A stretch of 64,000 nucleotides of DNA from Thuidium tamariscinum. Lineage: Eukaryota; Streptophyta; Bryopsida; Hypnales; Thuidiaceae. Numbering within the stretch: position 1 is the stretch's first letter; every line of letters begins with the position of its first letter. Shown piece after piece: positions 18,150 to 64,000 of this stretch. The notes below the pieces were generated by a model that saw nothing but the letters and a program-made list of their open reading frames with translations, did not search any database and had not been told where the DNA came from. Both the position numbers and the translations under genes were made by a program. The stretch spans positions 3,782,001 to 3,846,000 of the forward strand of contig OX344751.2 in assembly GCA_947034885.2 (NCBI GenBank), in the 5' to 3' direction.

Positions 18150-18153
18150 TTAA

Positions 18154-18879
18154 CCCTTAAACGACGCCGAAGCCATTCCGTGGCCTTTGGATGACTGCAA
18201 GGGACCAGAAGAGGAGCTGAACAGTAGTTTTTTCATCCGTATTTTTTTAATGCCCTTGCATGTTGAGTTATGAAGAGTGTCCAACTGAGTTTTTTGTCTG
18301 GCTGATGTTTGATTTCATGTGGTTGAGAAGTAATTACCAAAAACGGATGGCAAAATTTGTTGTTTTAGTGTATTTTGAGAAATTGAGTAAATTTAAAATT
18401 TCTCCTTGAAAATGACATTTTTTGAATTTGAGCCCAACTAACAAAATGAAGGTCCTCACTTCTAGTTTCTACTGCAATTGGAATTTTGGAAAAATTCGTA
18501 AAATCGAATGTTCTATAGCAATTTGAATTTTGGCTGCATTTTTAATGTCCACTGCAGCCTAGAAATAGGTGTACACGGAAGTTGAGTTTACACCATAATG
18601 TTTGTCACTATAATGTACACACATGGTGAAATTTTCAGATTTTTTGAGATTATTTTCTATTTTCTATTATTTTTTCTTCACTTTTTCTTCAAAAACTGTC
18701 ATGAAAATCAATTTTCCTCAAAAAAATCTGAAATTTCTGTGAAGTATAGAAGAAATGTACTTTCATCTCTGAAAAATAAAAGTAAAATTTTCCAGGCATG
18801 ACTGGTTCTAAAACGGTAACAAATTGTGTGACGGGAGAGGAGTCTTCAAACCAGTGGTCATAGGCCCGTCGTTTAGGGG
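18154..18879. mobile_element. TTAA element (copy A, 726 bp)
   Basis: It is flanked by TTAA at 18150-18153 and 18880-18883. The ends are CCCTTAAACGACG and, in reverse complement, CCCCTAAACGACG, a 13-bp terminal repeat with one mismatch. It belongs to the family at 34594, 38432, 40105, 44200, 59693 and 62747. The interior is AT-rich and non-coding. Confidence 0.8.
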
Positions 18880-18883
18880 TTAA

Positions 18884-20150
18884 TCACTCACATGAGGACT
18901 TTCTTTTGTTTGATATTATTTTAATTTGTTGACAAACACATTCATTGATTCTCATGATATAAGAGCATCTGCAATCCTTCTGGCAAGAGGGTCCGTATTG
19001 GCACTTTGCTGTGTACAAACAATTTTTTAATTTAAATTTAGACTCCAATGCAATTGTTATTAGGGCCTTCAATTCCAAGGCCTCAGTATGAGACCCCCGA
19101 GGATTAGTAAATTTGCAATATGTGGAGGGTGTGGACGCGTTAAATCGTGTAATCGAAACTAACGTGGCGTAGCTGAAGTTACCCCAAGGTAAACACTGAA
19201 ATTTTTTATTTTTTTCAAAATTTATTTTTTTCAAATTCTGAATTCATATTTGGATTTGGAGACCCCAAATTAGCGAGGGAGGACCTTGACACAACCAAAA
19301 AACCCAACAAAACATAAACCCCAAAACCCTCATCAATCCCTGGTAAAACCTGTTTTACCTGCGGGGGGCTGGATTTACCTGCGCCACGTCAGGTTCGATG
19401 GCACAATTTAACGTCTTGCGGAAGTTGGCCCTTTAGAGAATAATCATTATTGTCAAACATTGGAGTGTGTGCTCTTCAATATAATTTTCCCATATCTTTA
19501 TGGAAAGTCTTTTTATAATGGAGATTCTTTCCATTAAATCTGTCCCATGAAGTGGGATTAGTGGGCTGGATTTACCCCAGGGATAAAGGCTGAAATTTTT
19601 TAATTTTTGCACAAATTTTTTGTTGCAAATTATGAATTCATATTTGCAATCAAAGACCTCATACTAACTTGAAGGAGTAAAAAACATACCCTAAAACAAA
19701 GCACAAAATAGGGGTCTTTTTTAGTTTTATTCTCAAGTAACATGAGTTATATCCTATTGGTCCCACTTTGTGAGACAAATTTAACGGCCTTCGGTCAAAT
19801 GTGGAGGGTCAATGGCCAAATTTTGCTTTGGTAACCATGATTTGCTAAGACATCTATGATTTTTTTTTCTTATCTTGCTTTTGAAATACTTGTCTAATGT
19901 CTAATTTTGAATTCATTTGTACCTTCTACAAGTTCTTTTGGATGTGCTTTTAATGAGACCATTTTTTAAGTTCAGCATTCCAAAGTTAGTTATACAATTA
20001 CAAAGACAATGTATTAGCAACACTACAAATGCTCTGGGTCATCAATGCAGTTTCAACCATCCTTCAAACTCTACCATAACAAGCCGCCAGTTCTTAGTGA
20101 CCTACTAAGAGCATTCCCATACCAAAGACAACAAATGGGGCACCAAGTGG
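18884..20150. repeat. intergenic DNA with a diverged direct repeat
   Basis: About 19160-19280 and 19560-19680 share ttaccccaggataaa-, ctgaaattttttaattttt- and gaattcatattt-like stretches, indicating an old duplicated repeat of unknown type. No gene is supported. Confidence 0.4.
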
Positions 20151-20879
20151 GGGTCATTGAAAGAAACACCAGTCCTATTTTGCATGACACCGCGAACCAC
20201 TTTTTTGTTTTTCACTATAATTTTTGGAGATTAAGTCCAATGAACATGAAATTTTTATTGAACATACCTAACTTGAAGTTTATTAGATCCCTTATTTTTC
20301 AGAAATTAAAGAAAATCATTTTATATTTTAAGAACATTTTCGTTGAGCTGTCATATAAATACGTTTATGGTTACCATTACATTTGCAGTGTCTAAATTTA
20401 ATGATTTGAAGATGAAACTTTCATAGTCTATTTGCATAGGTGTAAAACCTATAAATTCCAAATAAAAATCTAAAAATATGTTTTTTTATGTCCTCTACAT
20501 GAGTACAATTTTTTTCCTGTGGCACGCAATTTTTGAACATTGATGAAGGTTCTAAAATCATTCTTTTGGTCAAATCTCATCAAAATCAACTTTCATCAAA
20601 TGGAAAATTTTTATTTTTTCTTAAAATTGATTTTCCTATTTTTTACAAATTAAAATGTGGAAGTACTAATTTTCATGAGATTTTGCTCTTTTCTGGATTT
20701 CCTACTTAGAGATTTTTCCTATACCTTTCCTTTCTAGGTTACCTTCTTCTTAAAGGTTTATACATGAACCATATTTTTCACTTTTTTTAAAACTTGTTTT
20801 TCTAATTTTAAAGTATTCCCGGAAAAAAAATACAATTGAAAACACTACGCTTTTTGTACGGTGTTTCTTGCAACGACCC
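20151..20879. mobile_element. MITE with 4-bp duplication GTGG
   Basis: The left end is GGGTCATTGAAAGAAACACC; the right end in reverse complement is GGGTCGTTGCAAGAAACACC. GTGG lies directly outside both ends, consistent with a 4-bp target duplication. It shares its terminal repeat with the elements at 25603-26252 and 62251. It is 729 bp and non-coding. A 4-bp duplication with this terminus does not let me name a superfamily. Confidence 0.7.
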
Positions 20880-23800
20880 GTGGAGAATTTTTTTGGGTTG
20901 GTGTGCCTTTCTTTTTGTTTGAAGAGTCGTGTCCCTACTACAAGACTCGTCGAAAGCTCAAAATGTCAAACTTCCATCAATAACTATTAGTTTATTAGTT
21001 CAAAAATAATCTCTTCACCTTTTTAAGTGAAGTTTTCCAAAAGGTAGGGACAAAAAGTCTTTTATATTGCTTAGTGAGCTATTGTGAATACTCCTTAAGA
21101 TTATATGCATTTCTTAAATTTGGTTGTGGCCAATCACAATTTTGGCTTCTCCATACCAAGCACAGGGCAATTATATTGCTTGGGCCCTGCCACTCCTTGG
21201 ATTGCTCTTGTTTAGCATTTTGGCATGGGGATGCTCTTACTAAGGTATTCCCATGGGTACATTGATAATGTCACCCATTTATAATTAATACACTCTTTAA
21301 ATCCATACATGCGACATAATTATAAGAAATGAGACACTTTCGCGTTAATGCTTTGTACAAATGATTCTCTTGTGCCAAAGGTAGTGCCAAAGGTAGTATA
21401 GGTAGATGTAACCTGTCTTTTGAGTGAATAGTGTCTTTTGAGTAGGTAGTGAGGTAGAGGTACCATAAGGCCTCACTACCGACCTAATAGAATTTGAAAT
21501 TAAGAAAAAAAAAATATTAATTCACCTTGCCCCCCCTCCAAGAAAAAATTCAATTTTAAAATTTTAAAATTCAATTTTAAAATTCCCCTCCCCCCATTCT
21601 CCCCCCACCCCATGTTAATGCTTTATACAAATAATTCTCTTTTGCCAGAGGTAGGGGATGTAGATGTAACTTGTCTTTTGAATAGGTAGTGAGGCAGAGG
21701 TACCATGAGGCCTCACTACCCACCCAATAGAATTTTAAATTTAAAAAAAAAATTATTAATTCACCTCGCTCCCCCCCCCCCCTTTCTTATAATTTTCAGA
21801 AGCCAATGTAATTGACAATCAATATGGGATTTTCAATCCCATACTTAGTACTTGTATCTTTATTTAGTATCTACATCTAGTACTATATCTATATTTGAAC
21901 TCCTATCTGTATCTAATATTCACTACGTATTTGTATAAAATATTATATCCATACTCAATATTCATTTTTTGTATTCATATCTATAGTCATATTTGGATGG
22001 CTCAAATCTCACAAGACAATATCAATGGCTTGTAATTTTTTGAGAAATCAACATTTAAAAAAATAAAAACAATCAATGGCCTGTAAATTTTTTGAGGGGA
22101 GGACGGGGGCAATTAATGCAAATTAGTATAGGTGCCATCTTTTGCGAGTATAGTGTAGCTAATGATTATGGCCATAAAACTTCCACAATTCATATGTAAC
22201 TCTAAAGATATCCACATAATTACACGCATCAATGCATTGGAATCTTTGCTAAAATAAGATCAACAGATTTGAGAGAGGGATTGGAAGGGGCATTCACTTT
22301 GAAACTAGTTTGTAACTTTTGGTTGAAGTCTTGAAATTTCAAATTTGCCTTTGTAGATGAAAGTTGATTTGATTTTACCACATTTTTTGAGTTTGAAGTT
22401 TTTTGAAGAAAATCATTCTACTATGCCAAAATGAAGCCAGTTTGAAATTCTCCTTTAATCACAATTCTTACTTTTGATTTAAGTATGAGCAATTGAGCTA
22501 TCACTCATTTTAATTTTCATATTCCATATGGTTTAGTCTACCTCCTACACCTCCAATTGTATAAAGAACCCCATAAAAAATTTTCCTCTCATCTTTTTTT
22601 ACACCAAGATAAATTATATTTAGAATTTGATTGCCAAACACATTGAACTATTTTGAGTATAGCTCTAGTTTTTCTAAAATTAAATTTTACTATCCTACCC
22701 ATGTAGCATGTTTACTAACATAGCATCCTTGCATATGTGACAATTTTTGGCCATATAGAATTCTATGTGGTGGATATTTGAATAATAATAATCTTGTAAA
22801 ATCATAAAATAAAATTAGCATCATTCTGTTGATTATTATCCAAACCAAGATGTTCTTACTAACTATTCTAACCAATATTATATATGATTTCACTTTTATA
22901 ATGGTTTAGCAATTGATTTTCTTTCTAGTGAGAGATGTTTATTGAAACTTTGAATTTCCCTCCTCTTGGATGCTTGCTGTTTGCAAGGTTGTTAAGTAAT
23001 AAAAGTGTGGATACATAGTGTTTCTTAGTATGCATTTTCTACTTTCAAATGGAAATAACCATGCTTTAGCCATACTTGGGAGTTCACAAAAACACAACTA
23101 TCATGGGCAAAAGTAACAAAGCTTGCATGGAAATGCATTATTCTACAATTGTGGTTGTTGACAATTATACATGAAATGTAGCAACAATTTTTGTTTATTG
23201 AAATATAGTTCACCCTCGGGAAGATCACTCTCACTATATTTGGGAGGTCCATGTGCAATGGAGGGGTATTTTGGGGGGCCTATTTACCTCCTAGGCAACA
23301 TTAAGAGGGCCCCTATCATTACCTAATGCAAAAAAATCTCCTATATAATCATCTATATCATTACTCATAATATGTAGGTCAATGCAATTTTTTTTAGCCT
23401 ATATTTTTTGTAAGTAAAATAACTAAATAACTAAATAATGAAAAAATAATTGTGACAAGGAAAAAGTTCATTAAAAAAAGCATTCAATTTCTAACTCAAA
23501 ATCTTATGCAATCTCAAACAATGCTATGTTCAAGGTTTAGGAAATGCAATTTTTGTTGAAAAAGCACTTTGAACATACATATTTTTAGATGCATTGACAT
23601 GTGCATGTAAACAATAAGCACGCTATCTTCAACACCAATTAGCATGAATGAATCAAACACAAAACATTAGAATTGAAAGCTCTACCAATATATAAATTGA
23701 AAAAGGAACTTTTGAAGACAATTGCTAATGATCAAGTGTTTTGTAATATTGTTGCAGCTATCTAATTTAGTATGTGAATTTCTATGTATCATAGCATTTG

Positions 23801-26252: not shown

Positions 26253-26256
26253 CTTT

Positions 26257-26959: not shown

Positions 26960-29496
26960 TCATTCTTCATACAAATGTTTCATTTGCAAAGAAGGTGTAA
27001 TAAGCCCTAATACTTCTAGCTTCTTCAAATTTCTGAAAGACTCAGGCCATCTCTTGATCAAATCATCTTTTCGAAACCACATCTTCAACTCACTATATTC
27101 AAGTGCCTCTATAAAATCTCCCAATGGTTCAAGGTCATTTGTACTCAATTCAAGCCAATGCAAATTTTTAGGAAGTGATGACAAAGAAATTAAACTACCC
27201 ATCCACTTCAATATACGCAATCCTTTCATGAGAGAAAGGTCAACTTGAATTCCTGCCTTCCAAGGAAGGACCAAAGTTTCAAGGGAATCTGGTAGTGGCT
27301 ACACAAACATATCCAAAGAATAATCAATTAAACTTATTAGAATTTTTGTTCAAATATTTCATGAATCAAATTAGGTAAAGATAAACTAAACAATAACATA
27401 TTACATACTTCTATTACTAAAACTAGAAGACTACACACACAACTCTCAGATCATCAATTAAATAACTAGGAAAAACATTACTTCTACACACTTTTAAGTG
27501 TTTGATCTAATATGTCACAAAAGAACTATGGAATAATACTGTATTCAAAAAATTGACCAAATCAAAGTTCAATAGTTACGAACCATATTTCATCCTTGTT
27601 TAATAATGTCAAGCATTCAAAACCCCACAAGTGTTTGCACACACCTGAATTTGTTCTTTCTTGTTTGGCTATGGCACGGCCCATGTCTCGCAAGAAGTCA
27701 TGCATGCACAATTTACCATCTTCAACTGTAATAAAGCCCTTCTCAACAAGGATCTTCACACCTAATGCTGACTGCTAACCTTGGGACCTCCAAACAAGTT
27801 TAGCCATCTCCACAGGTTCTCCCAATAATGCACATGCTATATCCAAAAACATTTCTTGAAATTGCCTTGGAAGAGTATCATAGCTTATTTTAAGAATTTC
27901 AAATAACTTCTTCTCATCGAATATAGTGCTATGATTCAACATCTCTAAAACTTCCTCCCAAATCTTTGCATCCTTCTGATCCCTCAAAAGAAACCCACAA
28001 ACCTTCAATACCAATGGAAGTCCTCCACACGCCATACTAACATCTCAAGTAAGACCTTTCAATCTTAGAGGTACATTCTTTTCACTTCCAAATGCATGGC
28101 ATGCAATGATACTTTGAGAATCTTGCACACTCAAGAGTTGAATGTCATAAGTGTAAACCTCATGATTCATATGAAAAGAAGTTGACTTCTCAAATATGCG
28201 ACGGTTTCGAGAAGTGACAATGCAAATGCTACCTTTCATCAACATTTTGCGTGACATCAAATAGTCCATCTCATCATCATCACGAACATCATCCAAAACC
28301 AAAAGAATTGATTTCTTCGACAACCTTTCTTCAAGAATAACCTTACCCCTTGATTTGTCTACAATATTGTGAATTGCATCATTCTCACACAAGGCCTTCA
28401 TAATATGATTTTGGACACTCATCACACCGCTTCGATTCACCTTCTCCACCACATTTTCCACATAACACCTGGCATCAAATCTTTTCTCCAATTGGTTGTA
28501 TAACTCTCGAGCCAAAGTGGACTTCCCAATTTCACCCATTCCCCACAATATCAACATCAACACTTTCTTCTCATCAACAATTTGAATGAGATTCTGAGCA
28601 ACTTGCTTCACACCTACAATACGATTATCCTCATCCAAAGGAAGGGACTCATTTGTCAATTCAACAATCTTTCCAACCACCTCTTGCACCAAGTTTGCTT
28701 CTGACCTACAAACAATATAAACAAAATTTCATTACCACCAAATGCATTGTCAAATTGAACATTGACCACAAATACTTCATAACATTTAGAGCATACTTGC
28801 ATATTTACCTCTTGTTTCCTACTTTGTGCACCCAACCATTGATCATTGAAGCTTGTTTCAAATCCGTTGTCCAATCCTCAATCATGGATTTATCATGCTT
28901 CTTTGTCAACTTCTTAAATCCTATAGCTAGTTGACCCTTTTGGACATAACGCACTTCCCATGGCTGAACATTGTAAAAGATGGGTAGCATCTTCTTTGAA
29001 GGACAATTCATAATTGCATGTAATTCTTTCAAACACCACTCTGATTCCGCAAACCCCACAGAAAAGATAACTAGGGCTAGGGGTGTTGTTTGGATTGCAT
29101 GGACAATGCATTTCCAAGAATCTTGGCCTTTACCAATAGATTTGCAATCCAAAAAGGGATGCAACCCAACCCCTATCAAAGAGGTGTACAAGAAACTCAC
29201 AAAACCCATCTTGGTATCAGGGCCTCTGTGACTTATGAAAACATCATAGTTCTCAAATTCATCTGCACCACAACCAATAATCAATCTACTTCAAAGATCA
29301 CCACATCCAAAAAGCATCAAATAATGTTTGCAATCACATCCAAAAGTGAGCAATATAAAGTTGTAAACAATGGTACTTCAAAATTAAATAAGAAAAGAAT
29401 AGGTTGGTGGTGAGACCAAGATTAAACTAATCGCATACCTTTAGGAACATGTAATCTCTTGGAAAGCCTTGTGTCACTCTCCACAACACTTGTCAT
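26960..29496 (-). pseudogene. TIR-NB-ARC-LRR (TNL) resistance gene, two nonsense codons
   Basis: Four exons in consistent phase: 29496-29439, 29262-28809, 28705-27580 and 27298-26960, giving 659 codons. Exon 2 encodes a TIR domain (DVFISHRGPDTK at about residues 26-37; WCLKEL with the Glu at about 99, the position known to be catalytic for NADase activity in plant TIRs). Exon 3 encodes NB-ARC: P-loop GMGEIGKST (usually GMGGIGKTT), kinase-2 LLVLDDV, CIVTSRNRR, CGGLPLVL, FLDIAC and the MHD motif (CMHDFLRDMGR). Exon 4 is a short LRR-like tail of about 112 residues, much shorter than normal. TGA at 28045-28047 and TAG at 27775-27777 interrupt NB-ARC while the downstream frame stays intact, so decay is recent. 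TNLs act in immunity; at most a TIR plus partial NB product could be made. Confidence 0.92.
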
Positions 29497-32629: not shown

Positions 32630-33990
32630 CTCAGTCACTCATAACCTCTTGGATTGATATGAAATTTTAGCCACACAAATTAGACTAAAATAGGCAACTT
32701 TTCAAAAAAAATGATTAGAAACAAACACCATGTGAGGAAGAAACAAGCTGCCAAAGTTCATTGCAATCCAAAAATGTTTGATTTTTTAACTACAAATTGC
32801 TTCCAAACATTCAAAACAACTTGGATTGCCATGATAATTTGACCACAATAACAAGACATCTAGAGGAACGCAATCCAATAAATTTTATTGAAAACAAACA
32901 TTGGATGAAGGAGATATAGGCCCCTGAAGTTGCAAGCATCAACTACAATTTGGTAAAATCAAATTGAACCTATGAACTTTGATTGGCTTCCAAAAAATTT
33001 GCACTTCTTGGATCAGCCTAAAAATTCACAGCTTTCCTGAGAAGTTTTATTGAATTTGGACATTGGATGCAAAAGTTATAGACTTATAGCACTTTGAATT
33101 GGACTTTCAAACTATATTAGGTTATATTTCAACTTCTTGGACATTGAGGGGTTAACACTTGAATCTTTTGGGATTTTGCACATTTTTTCTTATATATATT
33201 TAATCTCTAACTGCCTAGTCAACCATATATAGTCAATTTGAAATTTTAGGCTTATTTTTTTATAAGTAGTCAAATTTTTTTGACCATTTTAAGTTTTTGG
33301 GGGGTAGTTTTGAAGGTTAAATATTGAAAACTTTCATTTTTTTAGTGAAAAAAATCTATTTTTGATTATCGAGAGGTCTTTAAAGGCATAGATGTGGCAT
33401 TAGTGAAGAATAAAGCTTGCTAATTTTACTTCATTACCCAACTTTATTTAGAGCTTGCCAATTTCACTTGATTTGAGTTTTCAAGAAATTGCACTTATCT
33501 ATTAGCTTTGAAAATGATCCCTGTACAAAGAATAAAGTGTTTTTATGATTTTTTCCATTGAAAATTTCAGCGTAGAAGTGTTGATTTGGAGCTATTTGCA
33601 ATTTCTATTTGTAATTAAAAAAATTGCATGTCAACAAGTGCAAGGTGGATTGTGCAATGATGCTAGAGTATGAGCGGGGAACAATGAGCATTGAGCAATG
33701 AGTAATGAGCAATGAAACATGAATGCTCATTGCAAGAATGTTTTCTAAAAATAGACATGTTAGAGAAATAAATAGTATTATCAAATCCAAAAATAATAAT
33801 GTCAAAAAAATTAAAAATTTTAATTTTTTTTAAAAACTACAAAATAATTATATAAAATAGTTGATATTATAATGAAAGGTTGCATGAATGAACACCCATT
33901 CATTCATGTGTGAATGAACTTCATCCATGTCATCCATCCATCATCCATCGTTTATCATTCAATTTCCAAATTATTAAAAATTTTGCAACT
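32630..33990. other. AT-rich intergenic DNA with simple repeats
   Basis: No gene is seen. It contains a short array of (t)gagcaatga around 33680-33735 and catcc/gaat repeats around 33880-33960. A degenerate TTAA-element-like end (gaggggttaa) lies near 33146. Confidence 0.4.
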
Positions 33991-34593: not shown

Positions 34594-35519
34594 CCCCTAA
34601 AGTTCCTTCACTATGTTTTAACAAAAACTGCTCCAAAACTGCCATTTTTAGGATAGCTACCAAATTTTTTTTTTAAAAACATTTTTTGACATATGTAACC
34701 GTAGGATCTTTTAGTGAAATAGTTTGTAAAGATGTAGAAAAAATTTCAGAAATTTTCACCATGTAGATTGCAAGATATTAGTGTTTGAAGTTACAAAAAT
34801 CATTTTTTTTTCACTGCGAAAATCCGGGCAGCTGCACTTCAGAAGGCCACATTTGTATGAAAAAATGTCCAAAATGGTTGCAACTCTTTGGATTCATTCT
34901 CCAATTCAAGTTGGCTACATGCTTGAAAATTTTCATATCATTTGGAATTGTACAACATGTACAAAAAAAATAGTAAGTAGAAAGAAGTAGAGAATGATTC
35001 AAAATACTAAAATGGTAAAAATTTATTTATTGAATTGAAAAATGCCAATCCCAAAGGTTCAAATGTTGTAATAAACAACCTACACCCAATGTTTTAAATT
35101 TTTTTCAAAAATATTGAAAATTGAGTAAAATAAAGGACTTCAAAGTTTATTTTAGAGAAGAGAATCCATAACTACCCGCAAACTAAAATTCTTCATAACT
35201 TTTGACTTATTAATCCAAATGGAATGATTCAAAGCTTTCCATGTACATATAAATCTATAAAACCAATTTCAAATTTTTATTTCCAAAAAAAGTGATTTTT
35301 TCTGATCTGCCCAAACTGCCCGAGTTGAGAAACAAACAACGTTTTATGCGATAACTTTTCAATCATGTAGTCAAAAGTCACGAAAATTATTGGGCTTTGA
35401 AGATACTCCTCGTCCACACCTTCTATTAAAGTTTGGTTCCAAAATATGAAAATCTCTAGCCACACGTACCTGCCCGAAATCGCTATGTTGCCAAAAAAGG
35501 CATGTTGGTCCTTTAGGGG
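34594..35519. mobile_element. TTAA element (copy B, 926 bp), nested in the CACTA element
   Basis: TTAA lies at 34590-34593 and 35520-35523. The ends are CCCCTAAAGTTCC and, in reverse complement, CCCCTAAAGGACC. The interior is near-identical to copy D and to the reverse complement of copy C. The short ORFs inside (for example 34785-34973, shared with D) owe their conservation to recent copying, and no known domain is seen. The target TTAA is part of the CACTA terminal repeat, whose intact form is at the right end. Confidence 0.93.
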
Positions 35520-35845: not shown

Positions 35846-35911
35846 ATGTGTGATTGTTAGAGAAGTAGAAATGTATTTAGATAGTTCTTTCGGGTGTTTT
35901 TCAATTCTTTT

Positions 35912-36272
35912 TTAAAGTCAGCAGACTTTAGAAGCGATTCAGACTTAGTAAACAAACTTTTTTGGAAAAACATTGAACTAAAAAAAGTTGATAAATAAAG
36001 TCTTCTTTCACCTCCAACAATTTTTTTGAGATTTGAATCTTTCAATCAAAAGTTATGAACAAAAATCAGAGAGGGGTGGAAATGAACATTTTTTTTTAAA
36101 ATTTTCAAACTCCCTCTCTGATTTTTGTTCATAACTTTTGATTGAAAGATCCAAATCTCAAAAAAATTGTTGGAGGTGAAATAATACTTTATTTCTCAAC
36201 TTTCTTTAATTCAAATTTTTTCCAAAAAAGTTCTTTTACTAGGTCTGAATAGCCCCTAAAGTCTGCTGACTT
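35912..36272. repeat. large palindrome 1 inside the CACTA element
   Basis: Arms of roughly 160 bp start and end with aaagtcagcagactttag and its complement. The centre lies near 36080-36110 and the arms contain cagagaggg, ataacttttgatt and caacaatttttttgaga. It is imperfect but clearly foldback, and non-coding. Confidence 0.8.
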
Positions 36273-36438
36273 TTCAAAAATCCGATTTGTGATGATTTAA
36301 TTTAAAAAGAAATCTACATTGTAAAATTAAGACTCCAAAGACTTATAAAGAAACAAAAGGATTAAAATTATACTTATATTTGAATTTGGAGTTGAGACAT
36401 ATAATTTTAATTATATTATTCTTTAACGTTTTTCCCAT

Positions 36439-36960
36439 CAAAAGTCAGTAGACTTTAGTGGCGATTTTGTCCTAGTAGATGAACTTTTCAAAAAAACCTT
36501 TGGACCAATGAAAGTTGTAAGATGAAGATATCTTTCACGTGTAACAATCCAATTAAGATTTAGATCTTTCAATTAAAAGGTATGGACAAAAATCAGAGAA
36601 GGTGTTTAAAAATGTAAAAAAAATGTCCATTTCTACTCTTCTCTGATTTTTGTTCATAACTTTTGATTGGAATATCTAAATCTCAAAAAAATTGTTGGAG
36701 GTGAAAGATATATCAATTCTACAACTTTCATTAGTCCAAAATTTATTGAAAAAATTAATTTGACAAAAAAATTTCTTAACATTTTATAACACTACCTCTG
36801 AAATTTATTCATAACTTTTGATTGAAGACTCCAAATTGCAAACGGTTTTTTGGAGATGAAAAATTGTTTTATTCCCCAACTTTTATTTGTTCAAAGTTTT
36901 TTGAAAAAAGTTCTTTTTCTATGACAAAATGACCTCTGAAGTTTGCTGATTTTACACAAT
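36439..36960. repeat. palindrome 2 plus a solitary third arm
   Basis: 36439-36765 is a second, more diverged inverted repeat of the same unit (aaagtcagtagactttagtg at its left edge). 36795-36955 is a further single arm ending tttgctgattt. With palindrome 1 this gives about five copies of one arm-unit in alternating orientation. Confidence 0.7.
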
Positions 36961-40104: not shown

Positions 40105-41029
40105 CCCCTAAAGGACCGCAACTATGTTTCCACCAAAACTGCTCCAAAACTGTCATTTCTAGGACACGTACCAAATTCCAGAAAAAAAACATTTTTTGAC
40201 ACATGTAACCATAAGATCTCTTAGTGCACTAGTTTGGGAAGATGTAGAAAAAATTTCAGAAATTTCCGCCATGTAGATTGCAAGATATTAGTGTTTGAAG
40301 TTACAAAAATCATTTTTTTTCCACTGCGAAAATCCGGGCAGCTGCACTTCAGAAGGTCACATTTGTATACAAAAATGTCCAAAATGGATGCAACTCTTTG
40401 GATTTATTCTCCAATTCAAGTTGGCTACATGCTTGAAAATTTTCATATCATTTGGAATTGTACAACATGTACAAAAAAAATAGTAAGAAGAAAGAAGTAG
40501 AGAATGATTCAAAATACAAAAATGGTAACAATTTATTTATTGAATTGAAAAATGCCAATCCCAATGGTTCAAATGTTGTAATAAACAATATGCACCCAAT
40601 GTTTTTATTTTTTTTCAAAAATATTGAAAATTGAGTAAAATAAAGGACTTCAAAGTTTATTTTAGAGAAGACAATCCATAACTACCCGCAAACTAAAATC
40701 CTTCATAACTTTTGATTCATTAAGCCAAATGGAATGATTCAAAGCTTTACATGTATATATAAATCAATAAAACCAATTTCAAATTTTTATTTCCAAAAAA
40801 AATGATTTTTTCTGATCTGCCCAAACTGCCCGAGTTGAGAAACAAACAACGTTTTATGCGATAACTTTTCAACCATGTAGTCAAAAGTCACAAAAATTGT
40901 TGGGCTTTGAAGATACTCCTCGTCCACACCTTCTATTAAAGTTTGGTTCCAAAATATGAAAATCTCTAGCCACACGTACCTGCCCAAAATCGCTATGTTG
41001 CCAAAAAAGACATGTTGGTCCTTTAGGGG
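40105..41029. mobile_element. TTAA element (copy D, 925 bp)
   Basis: TTAA lies at 40101-40104 and 41030-41033. The ends are CCCCTAAAGGACCG and, in reverse complement, CCCCTAAAGGACCA. It is nearly identical to copy B over its whole length. Confidence 0.94.
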
Positions 41030-42062: not shown

Positions 42063-43498
42063 TCCCTAAGAAATCAAGTATCTTTACAAACTAAGGCATT
42101 TTATGGTTTGGGCAAGTTTTCATAGTCTCAATTTTAGCTTTGATTATTTGAAATTTAATTGAAAATATGAAAACACATGACATTTCTAGAAATATAATTT
42201 ATATTTGAATTAGTACCTAGAAAGAAAAGTTATGCCACCATAAAGTTGAAATGAAAATCCCTAAGCAATACAAAAATAATCCTTAAAACTTAAAATAATT
42301 TAGTTTTAATTTTGACTTATATACTCATGTTTATAGAAAATATTTGTATCTACATTGAATCAAAGGTTTATTCATTATATTTTGGTTAGTGATAAATAAA
42401 AGTTATTTAGGGTCTAGTTTTTCAAGCAATCCAAGCATCTTCTTCAAAAAATAATGTAATGAATAAATATCTTAAATCAATTTTCACAAATTCCCCCAAA
42501 TAACATGGTTTAGCTACTTGTTACAATAGTCTCACCATTGGGTTTGGTGTGTTTTAATTCCATCTTAGAGCTAGAATTAGTGATTGAGTTCTTTAATTTT
42601 TCTTATCTCTTATGAATTTGCTACTTAATAGTTTCCTAGTGTGAAAATCAAATTGTTGTTTTCTTTTTGTAGACTTTTAAACTAAATTTTTCTGTATAAA
42701 TTTTTTAATTCAAAATCTATGATGAATTTTTAAAAAAAAAATTAATCCTTATAAGACAAACCTCTCTAACCAGAATAATTATAAAATCAAACATAAATTT
42801 CATATAGTTCTTCATTTATCTTAGATTTTGCTTAAAAAAATGTAGTTTCAACAATTTTCTTTTTAATCCTTTTCATTTTTTTTAGAATTCTTGAAATTGT
42901 AATATTTTTAATACTTTGAAGGTAGCATTTTGAAAGCTTAAAAATACATCACTTTTGAACTTTTCTATCAAATTTTTCCTAATGTAAGCTCAAAAAATAT
43001 ACCAATTACACCATAATATTTATCAACATCATCTTCAATTTTTCTAAAAGCCTTGTACAACTTAAATTTTTTTTAATAATTATGATTATTACAAGAAAAT
43101 TACCTAGACATTACAAAAAATTTTAATTGATAGTTTTAATCATTAAAATTTGAATTAATTTTTAAATATATATTATTAAATTAAAAAAATCAAATTTATG
43201 AAATGTGTATATTTATATAGAATATCTATTAAAGGTTTAGAAAATTCAAAAGCCAAAAAATGTAGTTCTAATAAGGTGCAAGAAAATCTAATTTCTTTTA
43301 TATGAAATAGAAATATCTTGCAATCTACGTGGTCACCATTTCTAAAATTTCTTTTACACAATTTTATACCAATTTAATGCAAGAAGCTATCAGTTGATAT
43401 ACAAAAAGCCATTTTGAAAAAAGAAACTAGATTTTGTAATAGAAATGGTAGTTTTTAGTAATTTTAGATAATTAGATGAAGGCCTTGGCTCCTAGGAG
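42063..43498. mobile_element. decayed TTAA element (copy G, about 1.4 kb)
   Basis: The right edge is ggctcctagga then TTAA (43499-43502). The left edge is degenerate (TTGA-tccctaag). The interior aligns with copy H at matching order: aaaagttatgcca, a (c)caagcatcttcttcaaaaaataa stretch and accattgggtttggtg have counterparts in H. It is an old relative. Confidence 0.55.
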
Positions 43499-44199: not shown

Positions 44200-45022
44200 C
44201 CCCTAAGTGCTCAAACGACCATTTTCTGGTCGCTGCCTCACTTCGGGCAAAAAAAAAACTTTTTTCAAATTTTTTTTTTCAGTTTTGAAAAAATTGGGTT
44301 TTCTTTCAACATTGATATTCAAAACTAAGATCATTACAGTCAAACAAAAGTTATAGCAAAAAAAAGGAGAAATAGTACAAAGTGTCTAAAATTGCTTAGT
44401 GTTGAAAAACTTACTATTTGGGGGAAGTACTGATGCTCTCATTAGTAAATACTTTTTATTTTTTTACAAGTCAATAAAAACCACAATTTTGACCAATCAA
44501 AAAAAATTTCAAATCATAAAAATAGAAATTGTATTTTTGGTGAATTTTTGAAGTTATATCTTCAAAATTCATTTGAAGAGAATCTATGAATATTTTTTTA
44601 ATTTTGATCATATGTATACTTTCTACTTTTTGTGCTTTACATTATCTTCTTTGATGCTAACTTCAAAAATGTTGTAAAGCTTATATTTTATAACACATTT
44701 GTATTTTGTCTTAATCCCTTGGGCTTTTAGAGGTTGAATATTTTTAATTTTTCTATAAATCAATAAAAAACACAATTTTGACCAATCAAAAAAAATTTCA
44801 AATCCTAAAAATAAAAATTATATTTTTGGTGAATTTTTGAAGTTATATCTTCAAAATTCATTTAAAAATAATCTAAAAACATTTTTTTTACTTTGACTAT
44901 ATGGATACTTTCTACTTTTTGTGCTTTACATTATCTTCTTTGATACCAACTTCAAAAAAATTGTAATGCTTATATTTTATAACACATTTGAATTTTGTCC
45001 TAACCCCTTGGGCTTTTAGGGG
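44200..45022. mobile_element. TTAA element (copy E) with duplicated right end
   Basis: TTAA lies at 44196-44199 and 45023-45026. The left end is CCCCTAAGTGCTC, and the right end in reverse complement is CCCCTAAAAGCCC. About 289 bp of its right portion, including the terminal repeat, is present twice in tandem. Confidence 0.8.
44471..45022. repeat. 289-bp tandem duplication within copy E
   Basis: tcaataaaaa starts at 44471 and 44760, and gggcttttag starts at 44721 and 45010, both with an offset of 289. The inner copy of the terminal repeat is mutated (aggttgaa) and the outer one is intact (ggggttaa). Confidence 0.9.
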
Positions 45023-45370
45023 TTAAGTGAGTTTTAAGAATAGTCCTAAACACAAGATTATAAGTAATGACCTTTATAGCAATTTTCAATTGTAAAAAAT
45101 TGATTTTCAATTTTGTACTTCTAAGGTACATATTCAAGGAAGTCCTTGAATTTGTATTTTTTACAATTGAAGTCCTTATTGCTTTCAATTGTAAAAAATA
45201 CAAAGAATATTGAATCAATATTTAAATACACTAGAATCACCTAGATGGGTTTTTACTTGAATGCTACCATTCTTATAAAGAATCACCATTTGAAGCCAAT
45301 AGTAGTGATGTAGTGATGCAACCAATAGGAAGGGCAACAATAGTGTTGTCATTGGGTACTTCTACCTTAG

Positions 45371-48204: not shown

Positions 48205-48212
48205 ACAAGATG

Positions 48213-50487: not shown

Positions 50488-50696
50488 TCACAAAACATAA
50501 CCCATATGCTTTGCAAGCTCAACTTCTTCCCTGGAGTATATAAGCCGAGCAACTTCACCTGAAGCCTCACGCAGCCGGGTGCTCAGCACAGAGCGAACTA
50601 TTCTTTCGCCTTTTACTAAAGAATACCGTGCGCTGGGTACACCTACCGGCATACCCTTCTTTTTGGACTGCCCCTCACGGGGCCCAACCAACTGAA
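50488..50696 (-). pseudogene. unrecognised C-terminal coding fragment
   Basis: The minus frame encodes GQSKKKGMPVGVPSARYSLV, then STRLREASGEVARLIYSREE and VELAKHMGYVL with a stop. It looks like a real C-terminal exon but I do not recognise the family. Its 5' edge coincides with the terminal repeat of a decayed TTAA element beginning at 50697, which probably truncated it. Confidence 0.4.
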
Positions 50697-51200
50697 CCCC
50701 TAATCAGGACTCTTCAGTAATGCACTGAAAGCTCCCCACACGGAGTAGCACTAAAAAAATTTTGAAGGCAGTGTAAGCAGTCATCCGGACATTATTCAAA
50801 AGACCTTTCCAATGGTATATTACACGCCCCAGAATTTCAAAAATTGCAGTGGGAAATTGCAAAAAATCGCAAAAATCCATTACGCGCGCATGCACGAAAA
50901 CGTGGCAAAAAGAACCATAGTAAAAAATGACTACGGTTTTTTCAGACCATGTTTTGCTCTAGTGTTTAGACCATAAATTTGCCTTTTCAATACAATGCAA
51001 ATCATTTACTTTAACCAAAAGTACTCATTGGAGACTAAACTACTATGCAAGACCTCCCCCCTTTTGTATAAAATTCCAAAGCTAAACAATTACATTAGTG
51101 TCTTCCTTGAAAGGATTCTCGATCATCTATCGGACATTCATTGTCTACAAAGACTTTAGAGGGTTCAAATGAAAGTTCCTTCCTAAATGCTAGTGTACCT
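50697..51200. mobile_element. left part of a decayed TTAA element
   Basis: The edge reads TGAA-CCCCTAATCAGGACT. At about 327 bp inward, ctcattggagactaaac matches copy F at about 358 bp inward, and similarity continues through tgtataaaattc and atctat(c/t)ggacat. No right end could be found, so the limit given is approximate. Confidence 0.5.
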
Positions 51201-51204
51201 TGTC

Positions 51205-53713: not shown

Positions 53714-56309
53714 CTTAAGGTGGTGGCGTTATGGGGTCACAATTTTTTCTATCACCAGATCTTTCTTGCCTTTTCTTTTGTGAGATTTCTCCCTGGTCTC
53801 CTTCGGGGGTCTGAAATCATAACTGTGGCATAGTTGAATGAGTGACAATGAGTGTGCTACAGCCAATGATAGTGTGCTAAGAGTACATGATATTCCAGAA
53901 TGTCATTTTAGAGGTCAAATTTATGGGGTTTGATTGTATATGGTTGTGCACGTATCAAGCAACTCTGAATGGATGCAGCTTTACTCTGTGGAGTTCATAG
54001 AGCTTCATGTGAACTTTATTTCTATTTTTAATAAGTATGAATCATGCTGTGTAAATTGCTCCATAAGTCCATATGATCTAGAAACGGTCAATTGTCTTTG
54101 AACTTTGATTAAAACGCTGGATTCTTTCAAATGGTAGATGCAAGATTTTCATTGAACTTTCAAGGAATTGATTAGCAATGGTGAAAATTTTGACATCTGG
54201 AGAATGATGGGAGAAACAAATTCTGCAAGGTTATAACTCATTCCCCTAAAATGGGGCACTTCCATCTCCTCGTTCATCTTGGATCTTGCAGAGCAAGTAA
54301 TTCCCCTGTGAAACTCCCTCAATATGCTGGTGTTTGTTGTCTACGGTATCCTCTTCCGAAACATGAGTTTGTTGGCTTGTAGGAAATGGTAGTTCTTTTT
54401 TAGAAATCTCTCTGTCGATTGAAGTTAGCTTGCACGCACGCTAAGGAGTATGCGGTTGAATTGAGTTTTTGCTATCTGCGAACCAGAATTCCTTTTGAAG
54501 CCCCATGTAGGATTTTCATGCAAAAAATTGGGATACTTGTATGCAAGCTATGTAATCAAAACAGACCTGTGAGTACGGTATTAGAGCATGTGCAATTTAA
54601 TTGCTGAGGGATTAATATGAAGAACCTTGTTTCAATGCTCATTTGAATTCTTTCAAGAAAGGATCATTCAGTATGTATTTGAGTTATTTGTAAAGTCTCC
54701 CCCACTTTGGGCATGACTTTTTTTGAAGTTGAGAAGGCAACTATAGTTGAAGCGTCAAACTTTTTTGCAAGATACCTATGTCATACGACTTCAAAAGTGG
54801 GGATTAAACTTTTTTAGGTACCATTTTGATGGAAAAATAAGTTTCATACCCACTTTCATTTCAATTTTTTTAACTCAACTGGCTTTTTCACAAAACTCAT
54901 GGGTTAAAAACCCAATTTAGGATACTTTACAAATAACTCAAATATGTGCAGTTTGTTTTCTGATCTTGAGTCTTCTTGGTAATAGAAGACTCAAGATGTG
55001 CCTCCGACATGTTTGCACTCAATATTGAAAGACTGAGTTTAGTGAGAGTCTCAAGGGTGAATCTTGATACACCTTTGAACTATAATTCTTTTGCTAACTC
55101 CACTTCTAACACCAAGTACAAATATTCCTTTTTATCCCTATTAAAATGTTTTCACTTGGAGTTTGTAAATTGCCAGTATTAATAGATAGGTAGAAGTTAA
55201 CTTACAACTTGGTTTCTTATATGCATTGTAAGTTGCATAACCCCTACCCCCAACTGTAGTTTTCGAGATATTCCATTATCGCCTTGCTCTCTGAATTTCA
55301 TCGTTTCACTCTAGATTATGCGATCCTCGAACACTTTTGATATTGAATGACTATAGATGCACTCCGTTTCAAAAAGATCTTACTTACCAGACTCTAAATC
55401 TTGATTACCATGTTTGATATACAGATTAGGGAGCCACTTTCTATCTACCCTACTATACTCTATAGATCCTACCAAATCCATTTAAAAAGTGATACCACCA
55501 TTCCCAATGGTATTAGTATGTGAGCATGAAAGTGTGAGCATGTGAGCCTTAAGCATATATAAGTATGTATGATGCAACCATTGAAAGTGTTTATAACATA
55601 AACACCTATAATAATATGTATGATATATTCTATTTATAACATATACATACTATTAACGTAGAAGGTTACTATAATATAGACACTTATATTATAGGTGTAT
55701 AATCTTTTAGGCTCAAAGGCTCACATAATAGCAACCCTCCTGCCATACCCAAGTCCAATTAAGTCATTCACTTAACAAGCATTTGCGTACAAGACCAATA
55801 CTTGCAATTGATGGATATAAACATTAGAAACCATATATTAAGCAAATATTGTTTTAATTGAAGACTTAACACAAGCATTCTTAACTTCTAAATGTCGAAG
55901 GCACCAAATTTTGGTATTAAAATAACTTTGAAGTTAAATATAACCTTACTAAGTTATTATTTAATAGTGTGTACAATTGATAAATTCTTTTTGAAATTTA
56001 GTTTTATCATCAAAATATCCAATTTTATAAATGATATATATATATTATAATTATTTTATTCAAGATTTTACACAAGGGTGCTTGTTGCAAATCTTGAATT
56101 TCTAAGTATTGAAGTTTTTTCAAAACGATCCTCAAATACACTAAATCTTGAATAATTAATCTCAATTTGATAAGTGAAAAGAGAATTAAAAGACTTCAAA
56201 TCACATTTATAATTTTAACCCCTTCAATGATCAAATATTATACTCCTTCAATTAATAAGTGATATTATTCTATTTTCTTATCTCTAACATGTTTACTTTG
56301 TATTTCTAT
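53714..56309. other. downstream and intergenic DNA
   Basis: The first few hundred bases are probably the 3' untranslated region of the preceding gene. The rest is AT-rich and holds one MITE (54677-54943). No gene is supported. Confidence 0.4.
54677..54943. mobile_element. MITE, 267 bp
   Basis: The terminal inverted repeat is ATTTGAGTTATTTGTAAAGT at the left and its complement at the right. ATGT lies outside both ends; alternatively the duplication is TA with one base trimmed from each end (Stowaway-like). It is non-coding. Confidence 0.75.
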
Positions 56310-57188
56310 TAAAATTTTAAATTTTTACGGGGACCCTGTTGGGGAACTTCGAGGGAAGGTCGTTGGGAACGCCGTTGGGAAAGCGTGGAATTAGGGTTTG
56401 CCTTTGTCCGTTCTTTTGATGTTGTTCTGGCTATGGTGATGAACGACTGATGGGGCCGGAAGTTAGATGAGTTACTTGCTGGAGAGTTTGACGAAGAAGG
56501 AGGGTATGGTATCTTCACTTGAATGGCACTGGAGATCCGAGTTCTAGGTACACTCTTCTTCCGAGCGTTTCCCTCTTCCTCTTTGTTTTTAAAAGTTGAT
56601 TGAATTGCAGAAATTTGTCACATTGATTTTTTTTGCGGTTTTCGGGATTGTGGAAGAACAGGAGCTTTCAATCAGGTTGAGGGCAGGATGTCTTTGTGAA
56701 GCTTAGAGTTCCTGTTTTCGAAGTATGTTTGGAGGTTAGATGGATTCGAGATTTGATCATGTACGTCAACGGGGATTTGTTTGTCCAGATTTGAACTATC
56801 CACACTGCATTATGGGCTCTTTGTTAATGAAACTTATCAAAATGTTGGCAATTTGTTCAATTTAGAGCAAAATCCAAGAAGCTCAAGAAAGGCCTTGGCT
56901 GCATTTAGGGTTAAATCCTAGCAATGAATCTCTGCGGGAGCTCCAGCGAATTCTCGTTGCCCAACTATCTCCTGTGATTCGCTTAACTCTCTATTGCAAT
57001 TTCAGTGCAATTTTTCTGAACGACTCCGATCACGTGTGTTGTAGGTGCCTCATGTTTCTAGAGACGAGCCGTAACGATGTGGGACAGAGATTTCGGAAAA
57101 GTCTGTAAATTTTGTGCCCGTTGAATTGCTTGAATTTTGTTATTGATGCCGCTCGCTGATTCAGACCGCACGTCTAATTTGGAGGAAG

Positions 57189-58991: not shown

Positions 58992-59688
58992 CGGCAGATG
59001 GGCCGATAGCTTATTCCCCAAACCTGGTTCTTCACCGAATGTAACATTGTTTACGGTAAATCCTCTTTTTGTATTTCGCTCTGAATCCTTGTTTTGTAAT
59101 CTTTTCAGGTTCGTGTTAACTCTGGCTATGCATGTTCATTGAAGACTGGTTTGTCATGGACTTCAAACGCCTTCAGTTTTACCCATTTAAGTGAACTCCA
59201 TGCTTGATTTTCAGGTTAGGCATATGTCTTTCGCCATTCATTTATTGACAGCATCGAAGGCCCCTTGCTCATCTCCAGGCTTTACTTTGAGTTAGAAGCC
59301 TAACGCTATCCATCCACCTTTGAGCTACAAGAGGAATTCTTGCAAGAGCTTCAGTCTTTTATGTTCCTCAGTCTGGCTATTTTCGGACATCCGGAGTCTT
59401 TTTTATTGCTCCATAGTGTCTCTCGATTATATTTACAGCAAGGGCTTCAAGCCTGATGATTCGATGTATGTTGCCTGAACCGAAACTCGTTGTGAGCCTC
59501 ACCCCAAAATCTCGGCTTGGAACTTCGAAGCCTGCATTGGTACCTCCCAAAAATGTTCTTATTTCGAAGGCTTCCAAATCATGCGTGTCGGTTTGGAGAT
59601 ATGATGGTACCAGGATCTCAAACTGCAAAATAAGTGTATTTTGAATGAAGATTTGGACAACTTCATGGAATTTTAAGAAGTGTGTATC
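58992..59688 (+). other. 3' region of the RPC31 gene
   Basis: No further coding is recognised. The composition remains moderate in GC until about 59.65 kb, consistent with a 3' untranslated region or an adjacent decayed sequence. A minus ORF (59377-59628) has no known motif. Confidence 0.35.
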
Positions 59689-59692
59689 TTAA

Positions 59693-60847
59693 CCCTTTGA
59701 AGTCCCAAGACCTCTTTTCACTAAAAAAACTGCCATTTCTCTAATTGCAATGAGCAATTTCATTTATGTATTTGTTTATCTATTCGTATTTATCCATAGG
59801 ATATTGCACTCGATTATTGGAAGAATGTGTAGAAGGAATTTTGAAACTTTGATTGAGTAGATTGTAGAATATTTGCATTCAAGTGAAGAAAATAAGTTTT
59901 TTCACACCTTGCTTGATTAGATTTTTGGCCTTTGAATCTTTTTAGTCTATAATTATTGCACTCCTAACTTTGTAAGGATGGGTTGGTCTGTGTGGAAATC
60001 ATACTTTTTTGAACCATGGGAATCATCTATTTTAAAAAATTTCAAAAATATTCATTGGAGACTAAACCATTGTTCATAATTTTTGCCTTTTTGTATAAAA
60101 TTCAAAGATGAATAGTTGCAATTTTATCTTACATACAAGAAATCTTTGTCATCTATTGGACACCTAGTGTCCATAGTAGCATTACTTGGCTAATGATGAA
60201 TTCCTAGTTTTTGATGTTGGAGAATTGAGTTGAAAGTTGGAGAATATTAAAAAAAAATTTAAATTTAAAGTTTGATTTTCATTCTTAAGAAAATTTGTTT
60301 AGTAGTAGATACAAAATAGGAAGAGAATCTAAATTTTTAATAGGTCCAGAATGGAATTAAAATACACCAATCTAAATGGTGAGGTTATTTATAGAAGCAA
60401 AGTCAACTTTATGAAACTTTTATATATTGTGAAATTTGAGTTAAAGAAATGAATTCTATAAGTTATTTTTTGAAGATATTGTAATGATTGCCTATAAAAT
60501 AAAAAGCTATATAATTTTCACATCACTAATTCAAATAAAATGAACCAAAGGTCACATGCAAACAAAAGTATAATCTTTGAGGAAACATAAATTAAAAATT
60601 AAAATTTGAGGTTTTTGTGATGAATTCAATCTTTTGTGATTTTTTATGTCACGAGAAAAAATACTTTTGAACTTGGGGGGCATTTCTTTGGCTCCTAGGG
60701 TCTAATTGAAATAAAAATATATGCCTAGAAAGATGTGGTGATTTTCTAATTTCAAATAAAAATTAGATAATCATATCAAAAACCAATGTCATACAAGCCC
60801 ATCCAAATTTCCAAGAATCCTAAGGCAAAACTTTAGGACTTAAAAGG
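59693..60847. mobile_element. TTAA element (copy F, 1155 bp)
   Basis: TTAA lies at 59689-59692 and 60848-60851. The ends are CCCTTTGAAGTCC and, in reverse complement, CCTTTTAAGTCC. It is related to the decayed copy at 50697. A second, degenerate end-like sequence (ggctcctagggtctaa) occurs inside at about 60690, so it may be composite. Confidence 0.65.
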
Positions 60848-60851
60848 TTAA

Positions 60852-62250
60852 ATATGATAGTCCAACTAGGAAGCTTTTTCTTTACAAAATTTAATAAGAA
60901 CCAATTGCTCTTCATCTCATGATGTTTTGTCAAAATTCAACATTCTAATAATTATTAATATTAGAAAGATAAATTATTACTACAACTCGTTGAAAAATTG
61001 ATGTTATTAAGACAAATTTAGACAAATTTTACAACATCTAATAGCATTTTATAAAAAGGTATTGATAAAAATGAAACTTATAAGTAAAAGCTAATCACTT
61101 CTTTGTAGAGTGAAATGCATGTCTTATTATATACCTTGCAACTATGTGGGTCTAAGACTGTCACCTCCAAATGTATTGAATACATTCATTTTAAGTAGTG
61201 ATTTTTGAAGTACAATATTATTTAAATAATCGATTTTTAAATTGACAATAATAATCACAAATACAATAAATATAGCTCTATTTAGTATCAAGAATGATTC
61301 TAGCACAATGAATCTTTTTCAGAAGTGTATCTAAGTTCATTTTAAACTACTACCAAATACTACTAAACTAAAAACTTTATTAAGAAATAGAACCAATACA
61401 ACCTATCAATTTGACCATTAATAATCTTATTAAATAAGAAGAATTGGCATTCAATAATCCTTGTATTCACTTCATCGTTATGAAAGAATTCTATATAAAA
61501 TGTTGAAAATTGTAGAAATGTGATCAATAATGATTGTAAGTTGAAAATTATTGACACTTGACTAATTGAATGTTTAAAAAAAGTTTAGATTTCTACATTT
61601 GATGAGTACCTTTATAATGCATTCAATAATTAGGTACAAATAGTTAATTAACGTTGACAAATAAGATTTGGCAAATGTGTAAAAATATAAAGATTATTTA
61701 TAATATATTCTTTGAAAAAATAATCTAATAAATCTGGCATCAATTTTAGAAATATTTTTCTTAGAGAGTGTAATTATTGGAGTTGGAATAAAGAAATATT
61801 TTTAAGAAGAAAGCATTAGAATTCTCAATTGAAGAATACAATTTACAAATTTGCCAATCCTTCAAATAGATGCAAGGGATATAAAGGGCCATATTAGAGG
61901 TCGACGGACTATCTAGAAGAATCTAGTTCAAAATTCTAATGACTTTGTCTAGGCTTGAAGAAAAACAATAGTATCTTTGACAATGTAGCATCAAGCATAA
62001 ATGACAATGAAGTGGGCTCTAGTGGCATGGTAGAGGCCATTATGAATATTGACTAAGTGGAATTCCATGTACTCCATACAATATCAATGAAGCTTAAAAT
62101 TCTAGATTTAAGTATATAACTTTATATCAACTTAAAGAAATATTTCATTCTTCGTACTCAACTACATTTACGAATATACATATAATAGAATGGACACATA
62201 ATGAAAATTTTCACTGTTGTACCATATGATGAATATAAAATACATGTATA
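60852..62250. other. AT-rich intergenic DNA
   Basis: I see no gene or clear element here. Confidence 0.4.
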
Positions 62251-64000
62251 GGATGATTGCAAGAAACACTTAAAGCCTTTTGTCACACCCTAGTTTTTTA
62301 TTTATTTATTGCCATAACTTTTGTGTTTTAGCTCCAAATGACTCAAAATTTATAGGGAAGCTACTCATAGTTATTATGTATCTATAATGAATTTTAGAGA
62401 TTTTTCAAAAATAATTTAGTATTTTTAAATAGCCTGAAAATTTCTCATAGGACTCAATTTGGGGTTTTTTAGTACCATTTATCTCCAAAAAAACTAATTT
62501 TGACCTAAAATTTGGAGAGGGTGGTCTCTTATTAGACTTATACCTACCATCTAAAGTAATTCTAAAAAAATTTATTTTTAAGTGTTGTAGAAGTCCACAA
62601 AGAGAGCTTCATTTTGCATTTTTTCTCAAAGGTATACAACATTATTTTTGTGAGTTTTTTGGTCAAATCTCATCACCAAAAAGTTTTTTCAAGTATTTTG
62701 ATTTTATGTATTCAAAGAAAAATAATCCTATGTTTTACAAATTAACCCCTAAAGGACTGAAGTCCCCTCGGGGGACACTTGGAATTTCGGGCAGGCTTGT
62801 GTGACTTGAATTTTTTATATTATTTTTTGAAACTTTTTTTGAAGATAGGAAATCAGATTAGCTTTCCAAAAATATAATTTTTATTTCAATTGGTGCTTGG
62901 AAGCAAAAGTTATGCCATTCTATGTCCAAAAAGCAGTTCGCCGGGCAGAAAAAAAAAAACCACAAAAAAAATTATTTTTTTATTTTTTATTTTTTTTCTT
63001 GAAGATTTTGTTTTGTTCTACATCTGAAGCTTTGTTTCATTTTATTTGGACTAATAATGAGGAAGTTACGGACAATCTTGAATTTCGGGCAATCTAAGCA
63101 CCTTCTTCAGAAAATAACTTACAAAATTCATTTTTGAATGCAATTTTTTGAATTTTTCAAATTTTCTTTTTTGATAGGGTTTAGGATGTTTGCAAGAACA
63201 AGCTCACCGTTGGGATCATGGTTTTTCAATTCCATCTTAAAGTTATTAACAACTTAGTGTTTTGTTCAATCTTGGACCTACTTCTACTTAACAATTTTTT
63301 AATGAATGAAAATCAAGTAGTAGTTTTTTGAATTTTTTTTCCCTAATTCCCAACTCAAATGTTCAACATAATAAATTTTAACTTCATGGTCCATAGTGCA
63401 AAAAAATTCAACAAATGGCAATCAAAGTCATCTGAAATTGCAAGTCAGAGTTCAAAATTTTTTTTTTTTCCAACTTTGAATGCTAATATCTTCCAATCGG
63501 TACGGTCAAACTTCATGAAATTTTGACTATATGATCTCAGACAAGTAATTTACAAGATCCTACGGTTAGATTCTAATAAAATTGTTTTTTTTTGTTTTTT
63601 TGGGAGGAAGTAGCAAACATGGCAGTTTTGAGTGGTTTTCAAGCCAGAAAATGCCTCAGTCCTTTAGGGGTTAAAATGTCACAAGGTGTATTTTCTTCAC
63701 CAGAACTTTGGACATAGAATTCTCATAGAATTTTGGTGAAGAAAATACAACTTGTGACATTTTAATTTGTAAAACATAGGATTATTATTTTCTTAAATAC
63801 ATAAAAACAAAGTACTTGAAAAAACTTTTTGGTGATGAGATTTGACCAAAAAACTCACAAAAATAATGTTGTATACCTTTGAAAAAAAAAGCAAAATGAA
63901 GCTCTCTTTGTGGACTTCTACAATACTTAAAAATAAGTTTTTTTAGAATTACTTTACGCAATAGGTATAAGTTTTCTAAGAGACGACCTTCTCCAAATTT
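62251..64000. mobile_element. large foldback element, cut by the window end
   Basis: It starts GGATGATTGCAAGAAACAC, the terminal repeat of the 4-bp-duplication family. From about 62508 the sequence is matched in reverse complement by 63735-64000, with the fold centre near 63722, once copy H is set aside. The right terminus should lie roughly 250 bp beyond the window. Arms are non-coding and similar to the interior of 25603-26252. Confidence 0.8.
62747..63670. mobile_element. TTAA element (copy H, 924 bp), inserted in a foldback arm
   Basis: TTAA lies at 62743-62746 and 63671-63674. The ends are CCCCTAAAGGACTGAAG and, in reverse complement, CCCCTAAAGGACTGAGG. Just inside the left end is a palindrome (agtcccctcgggggac). 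The uninterrupted target is preserved in the opposite arm of the foldback element, at about 63763-63775 in reverse complement. Confidence 0.94.

Follow-up and report, generated by a model that had tools for sequence, protein, structure and literature searches.

The piggyBac transposons, which are widely used as a genome-engineering tool, have been described chiefly in animals, fungi and protists. Miniature inverted-repeat transposable elements (MITEs) at TTAA are the subject of a study of coral genomes, and so of an animal host, in which the words TTAA and piggyBac recur (PMC2872659). PiggyBac-type repeats have already been named in plants as well. In angiosperms PiggyBac is one of seven MITE superfamilies, the passage at hand describing MITEs in plants but neither an autonomous element nor a transposase (PMC10004981); the repeat table of the fern Ceratopteris gives PiggyBac 1,230 pieces and 122,417 bases, again in a land plant, but the pieces average about 100 bases and the passage has no intact element (PMC6890710). 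Plants are named without detail among the sources of piggyBac in an excerpt of one paper (PMC10813416), and piggyBac is named in the accessible part of a Physcomitrella mutagenesis paper (PMC5505980). The searchable portion of the Sphagnum genome paper has no match for piggyBac or MITE (PMC9946827), and the match displayed from PMC10619864 is only to 'piggybacking'. For an autonomous piggyBac in a bryophyte we found no account in the open-licence literature, outside which lie Repbase and Dfam, where an entry may exist. Here we consider a stretch of 64,000 nucleotides from the moss Thuidium tamariscinum (OX344751.2, positions 3,782,001-3,846,000; hereafter the window, within which element coordinates are counted), whose repeated elements are almost certainly non-autonomous piggyBac MITEs, presumably served by full-length piggyBac elements of the same genome.

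The window holds six non-coding elements of 726-926 bp and a diverged seventh at 59693, each lying between TTAA and TTAA. A previous sequence-only reading had described six elements beginning with CCC and a diverged seventh flanked on both sides by TTAA, and all are present; CCC termini stand at both ends of all six main elements, and the seventh has one CCC and one CC terminus. Five of the six main starts were placed correctly in that reading and the last was one base late (62747 for 62746). The elements, with a decayed relative and an unoccupied target copy, are as follows.

18154-18879, + strand: piggyBac MITE, 726 bp; TTAA at 18150-18153 and 18880-18883
34594-35519, + strand: main-type piggyBac MITE of 926 bp, flanked left and right by TTAA
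38432-39357, - strand: main-type piggyBac MITE of 926 bp, flanked left and right by TTAA; orientation opposite to 34594 and 40105
40105-41029, + strand: main-type piggyBac MITE of 925 bp, flanked left and right by TTAA
42063-43494, no strand assigned: decayed relative; right flank TTAA at 43495-43498, left flank TTGA
44200-45022, + strand: piggyBac MITE, 823 bp; TTAA on both sides; internal tandem duplication
59693-60847, - strand: diverged relative, 1,155 bp; TTAA at 59689-59692 and 60848-60851
62746-63670, + strand: piggyBac MITE, 925 bp; TTAA at 62742-62745 and 63671-63674
63731-64000, - strand: empty copy of the 62746 target, the other arm of an inverted duplication; single TTAA at 63762-63765

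The three main-type copies (34594, 38432 and 40105) share 85.5-93.5% pairwise identity across their whole length. The 18154 element is 82% identical to an element nested in another locus of the genome (L009), the 59693 element matches the 62746 element in reverse (65.5% over 629 bp), and most of the 44200 element, up to its right end, consists of a 289-bp unit repeated twice in tandem (44448-45024, 89% matches). Two decayed relatives had also been proposed: that at 42063 has true homology to the 62746 element (76% over 109 bp) and to 34594 (85% over 47 bp), and what may be its partner end lies at 43494, next to the TTAA; that at 50697 was dropped, neither partner end nor homology having been found. 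The end pattern also fits 56219-56910, which is matched neither elsewhere in the window nor among the first eight loci, and a lone right end at 33151. Between two of the MITEs lies a cluster of overlapping inverted repeats (35908-36959) with arms of 117-184 nucleotides that are 74-90% complementary.

TTAACCC occurs 11 times on the + strand of the window, where a first-order Markov model expects 4.2, and GGGTTAA nine times; the motif is not rare there, and so the window count is too weak as evidence. The case for elements rests instead on paired ends, homology among copies and counts across the genome. In the 363,211,507 bases searched (363 Mb, with contigs C1-C9 of chromosome size at 24.9-54.2 Mb), the end sequence CCCYTAAAGGAC occurs 7,628 times and its backwards-read control 27 times; TTAACCCYTAAAGGAC occurs 6,607 times (3,382 forward, 3,225 reverse) and its control not at all. 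TTAA directly precedes CCCYTAAAGGAC at 6,607 of the 7,628 ends (86.6%), so that the expectation of TTAA flanks, once carried to the whole genome, holds for most ends. When the 40105 element was used as the query, the 41 matches listed, on contigs C1-C10, were 95-100% identical, 40 of 8,602 first-look candidates having been scored. Among 19 elements taken from contig C1, 15 measure 907-924 bp and the others 696, 832, 1,163 and 1,655 bp, the longest of which is a nested pair; most belong to subfamilies 70-97% alike, the 832-bp element matching no other. These 19 were picked through ends that contain TTAA and are accordingly uninformative on target choice. None of 25 elements, six from the window and 19 from C1, contains a transposase gene, the longest stop-to-stop frame being 111 amino acids, and the window MITEs must thus have depended on partners that have one.

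Such partners exist. The transposase domain PF13843 (DDE_Tnp_1_7) is found in at least 116 places in the genome; 116 of 658 first-look candidates were scored and all exceeded the cut-off of 22.4 bits, at 244.9 to 275.7 bits. The same domain gave no match in any of 14 control genomes. Five full-length elements could be delimited, all of them bounded left and right by TTAA and with CCC termini (coordinates within each locus).

L029, 1350-6437: 5,088 bp
L031, 586-6192: 5,607 bp
L032, 1165-7102: 5,938 bp
L033, 1277-6362: 5,086 bp
L035+L034: 7,787 bp

Elements with these ends therefore encode a PF13843 transposase, which is the test of a full-length copy that the sequence-only reading had proposed, and its assignment to piggyBac from TTAA and CCC ends is supported. 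That reading had also expected little piggyBac activity in land plants and had left the source transposase open; the source has been found, and of its two options it is the unexpected one that holds. Eleven of the PF13843 matches listed share the same uninterrupted frame of 1,023 amino acids, ten scoring 269.4 bits and one 269.6. Three copies were read from the ten at 269.4 bits (L029, L038 and L039); compared with L029 over 5,088 bp, L038 shows a single mismatch and so does L039, and the copies lie between unrelated flanks, with TTAA on both sides. Near-identical copies at unrelated TTAA sites point to recent movement, and the full-length elements of this genome look recently mobile. A further locus, L030, has a piggyBac frame of 847 amino acids, and its left element end was not found within the 6.2 kb read.

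Some arrangements of these elements are peculiar. A main-type MITE (L029, 424-1349) adjoins the autonomous L029 element with one TTAA (1346-1349) in common; two transposase domains, both of 273.2 bits, lie back to back about 6 kb apart at G000:C8:23933884-23942167; and in L031 the element ends at 268 and 586 mirror each other, an arrangement that could come from head-to-head copies or one inversion.

PF13843 was recognised in all six main transposase frames scanned. The catalytic triad of the Trichoplusia ni (T. ni) piggyBac we take to be D268, D346 and D447. The three catalytic aspartates of L029 and L034 align with those of T. ni piggyBac (6x67) and of piggyBat (9c0f), the phmmer matches having E-values of 3.4e-27 (9c0f) and 1.1e-22 (6x67) for L029, and of 1.4e-26 and 9.6e-25 for L034. 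A motif scan recovered all three aspartate motifs in six of eight frames and missed the second in L029 and L030, where it can be read by eye as TDNFFTS and VDNFFTS respectively; Cys/His-rich C-termini are likewise visible by eye in seven of the eight, L037 ending earlier. The frames represent six families (L029, L030, L031, L032, L033 and the L034/L036/L037 group) with mutual identities of 32.5-51.1%, which indicates that piggyBac has diversified in this lineage or entered it repeatedly. The coding frames of L034, L036 and L037 lie apart from one another, with a donor-like site, ATGGGTAAG, followed by a conserved LA(K/R)(E/D)DLPPRRSD stretch, and consequently the gene of this group is probably spliced.

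To relate MITEs to autonomous elements, the two ends (bases 9-60) of each of 11 MITEs were set against those of the five full-length elements, with 300 shuffles each. L035+L034 starts with CCCCTAAAGGACCAAACAGCGTTTTTTGG, the terminal sequence of the main-type MITEs, and the three main-type window elements match it strongly (z of 10.4 for 34594, 8.7 for 38432 and 9.4 for 40105, with 0/300 shuffles in each case). The 44200 element matches L032 (z 10.9, 0/300), and the relative of 18154 nested in L009 matches L029 (z 5.4, 0/300). From contig C1, L014 pairs with L032 (z 5.4), L018 with L035+L034 (z 3.6) and L015 with none. The single family that had been supposed in the window is replaced by at least three end-groups, whose ends match different autonomous families.

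The target can be approached through sites that lack the element. When the flanks of 62746-63670 are joined, they are identical to the other arm of the inverted duplication at 248 of 270 positions (92%). The joined flanks of 40105 have two uninterrupted genome matches over all 236 bases (87% and 85%), and within L009 a relative of 18154, 727 bp long, is nested, with TTAA on both sides, in an element of the 40105 type, four uninterrupted copies of which could be compared. All three comparisons of occupied with empty sites fit a 4-bp target, and the empty site is exactly TTAA in one of the three; the 40105 and L009 cases agree with one site some four bases long, the TTAA being intact only for 62746. 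Taken with the genome counts, these comparisons argue for TTAA as the target, duplicated on insertion.

Our essential contention is that the transposase of the full-length elements would bind the matching ends of the MITEs, excise them and join them to a new TTAA, duplicating the four bases, as piggyBac does elsewhere. Several observations tell against this account, or at least against a simple form of it. Mobilisation of the MITEs is something that we infer, and movement itself was not observed. The 18154 ends match L029 weakly (z 2.0, 13/300 shuffles), and for 62746 and 59693 none of the five autonomous elements is a convincing partner (z at best 2.0 and 1.5). L014 and L018, 72% alike, pair with L032 and with L035+L034 respectively, and 40105 also matches L031 (1/300) and L032 (2/300), though less strongly, so that end matching is imperfectly specific. 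The uninterrupted sites paralogous to 40105 read TGAA and AGAA, and the four uninterrupted copies at the L009 insertion point read TTCA, not TTAA. Lastly, among 20 ends without TTAA, from the 21 such ends in 100 listed places of CCCYTAAAGGAC, 15 are one substitution off, one has TTAA with a C added, and the remaining four lie farther from it.

TTAA is also the target of Kolobok, and the elements might then be MITEs moved by a Kolobok transposase. We consider this very improbable, since the termini of Kolobok are described as 5'-RR and YY-3' in the portion of the source available (PMC9587614), against the CCC starts seen here, and PF13843 is encoded by elements whose outer and inner ends are the same as these; the same portion lists Kolobok among plants for chlorophytes and rhodophytes. 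The remaining explanations are more improbable still. Because TA is contained in TTAA, the elements could be imagined as Tc1/mariner MITEs with a TA target, ACCCC ends and a preference for TTAA. With TAA fixed, however, the preceding base is T at 6,607 of 6,794 ends and A, C or G at the other 187, a bias which, together with the 4-bp empty sites, rejects a TA target, as the sequence-only reading had anticipated in judging a TA-only target unlikely; the outermost ends, moreover, match those of piggyBac elements.

PIF/Harbinger (Tourist-like) MITEs use a 3-bp target, TTA or TAA, and both of these lie within TTAA, yet a 3-bp repeat would give unequal ends, and the symmetry found here, TTAA and then CCC at both ends, makes this origin barely credible. 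It might finally be supposed that TTAA is simply part of the inverted repeats and that no target is duplicated, a proposal to which the constancy of TTAA across most copies lends something; we rate its chances as no better, given that paralogous sites keep the four bases (TTAA in one case, TGAA and AGAA in the other). Non-autonomous piggyBac MITEs dependent on resident piggyBac elements are the explanation that we adopt.

The autonomous elements carry a feature of their own. A stretch of about 105 amino acids upstream of the transposase is common to L029, L031, L032, L033 and the L034 group, that is, to five of the six families, and was not found in the 6.2 kb read of L030. Three upstream frames scanned against Pfam gave no match at E up to 0.01. 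Structure prediction for the L036 domain from six sequences returned five helices (mean predicted local distance difference test score, pLDDT, 84.1; predicted template modelling score, pTM, 0.74), for which a fold search of the PDB library found nothing at E up to 0.001, the best E being 1.4. Searching the genome with this domain gave at least 107 matches (150 of 234 candidates scored), and at least 32 of the 107 are followed on the same strand, at a distance of 1.7-3.8 kb, by a listed transposase domain; the controls gave 2 on the opposite strand, 1 in reverse order and 0.09 at random positions, one contig's size being guessed. Only 116 of the 658 transposase candidates were listed, and hence 32 is a lower bound. 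Whether mosses harbour an ancient and diversified branch of piggyBac that still moves, with a shared upstream helical domain in the transposase gene and thousands of MITE passengers, which would be the first natively active land-plant piggyBac to be described, is a broader proposal on which we are evenly balanced.

Other genes and repeats may be mentioned briefly. A U5 spliceosomal RNA gene lies at 50573-50685 of the window (88.5 bits, the gathering score being 40), frames resembling, by eye, a plant resistance gene of the Toll/interleukin-1 receptor and nucleotide-binding site (TIR-NBS) type at 28048-29290 on the - strand, and a 54-bp tandem repeat of 6.7 copies, encoding an arginine/serine-rich stretch, at 5706-6069. 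The LEAFY DNA-binding domain occupies two exons at one locus of the genome, and the D in KMRDYVHCYALHCL is presumably a moss mark. With the U5 RNA, the resistance-gene frames and the chromosome-sized contigs, this points to a land plant, very probably a moss.

These observations mean that piggyBac elements account for thousands of TTAA repeats in a moss genome, and near-identical full-length copies in a land plant widen the range of hosts with plain piggyBac mobility. Native plant elements offer material for studying transposition, silencing and MITE amplification, and the conserved upstream domain a new handle on the DNA binding or regulation of such transposases. In their TTAA target, CCC ends, DDE_Tnp_1_7 domain and aligned aspartates the moss elements are like the T. 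ni piggyBac (PDB 6x67, 6x68), from which they differ in their plant host, in their much longer proteins or, probably, several exons, and in the extra upstream domain. Among solved structures PiggyBat from Myotis (PDB 9c0f) is the best match to L029 and to L034, the two transposases searched, but its host is a mammal and the alignments show in it no upstream domain of the moss kind. The kind of element is thus a known one, and what is surprising is its host, its scale and the additional domain upstream.

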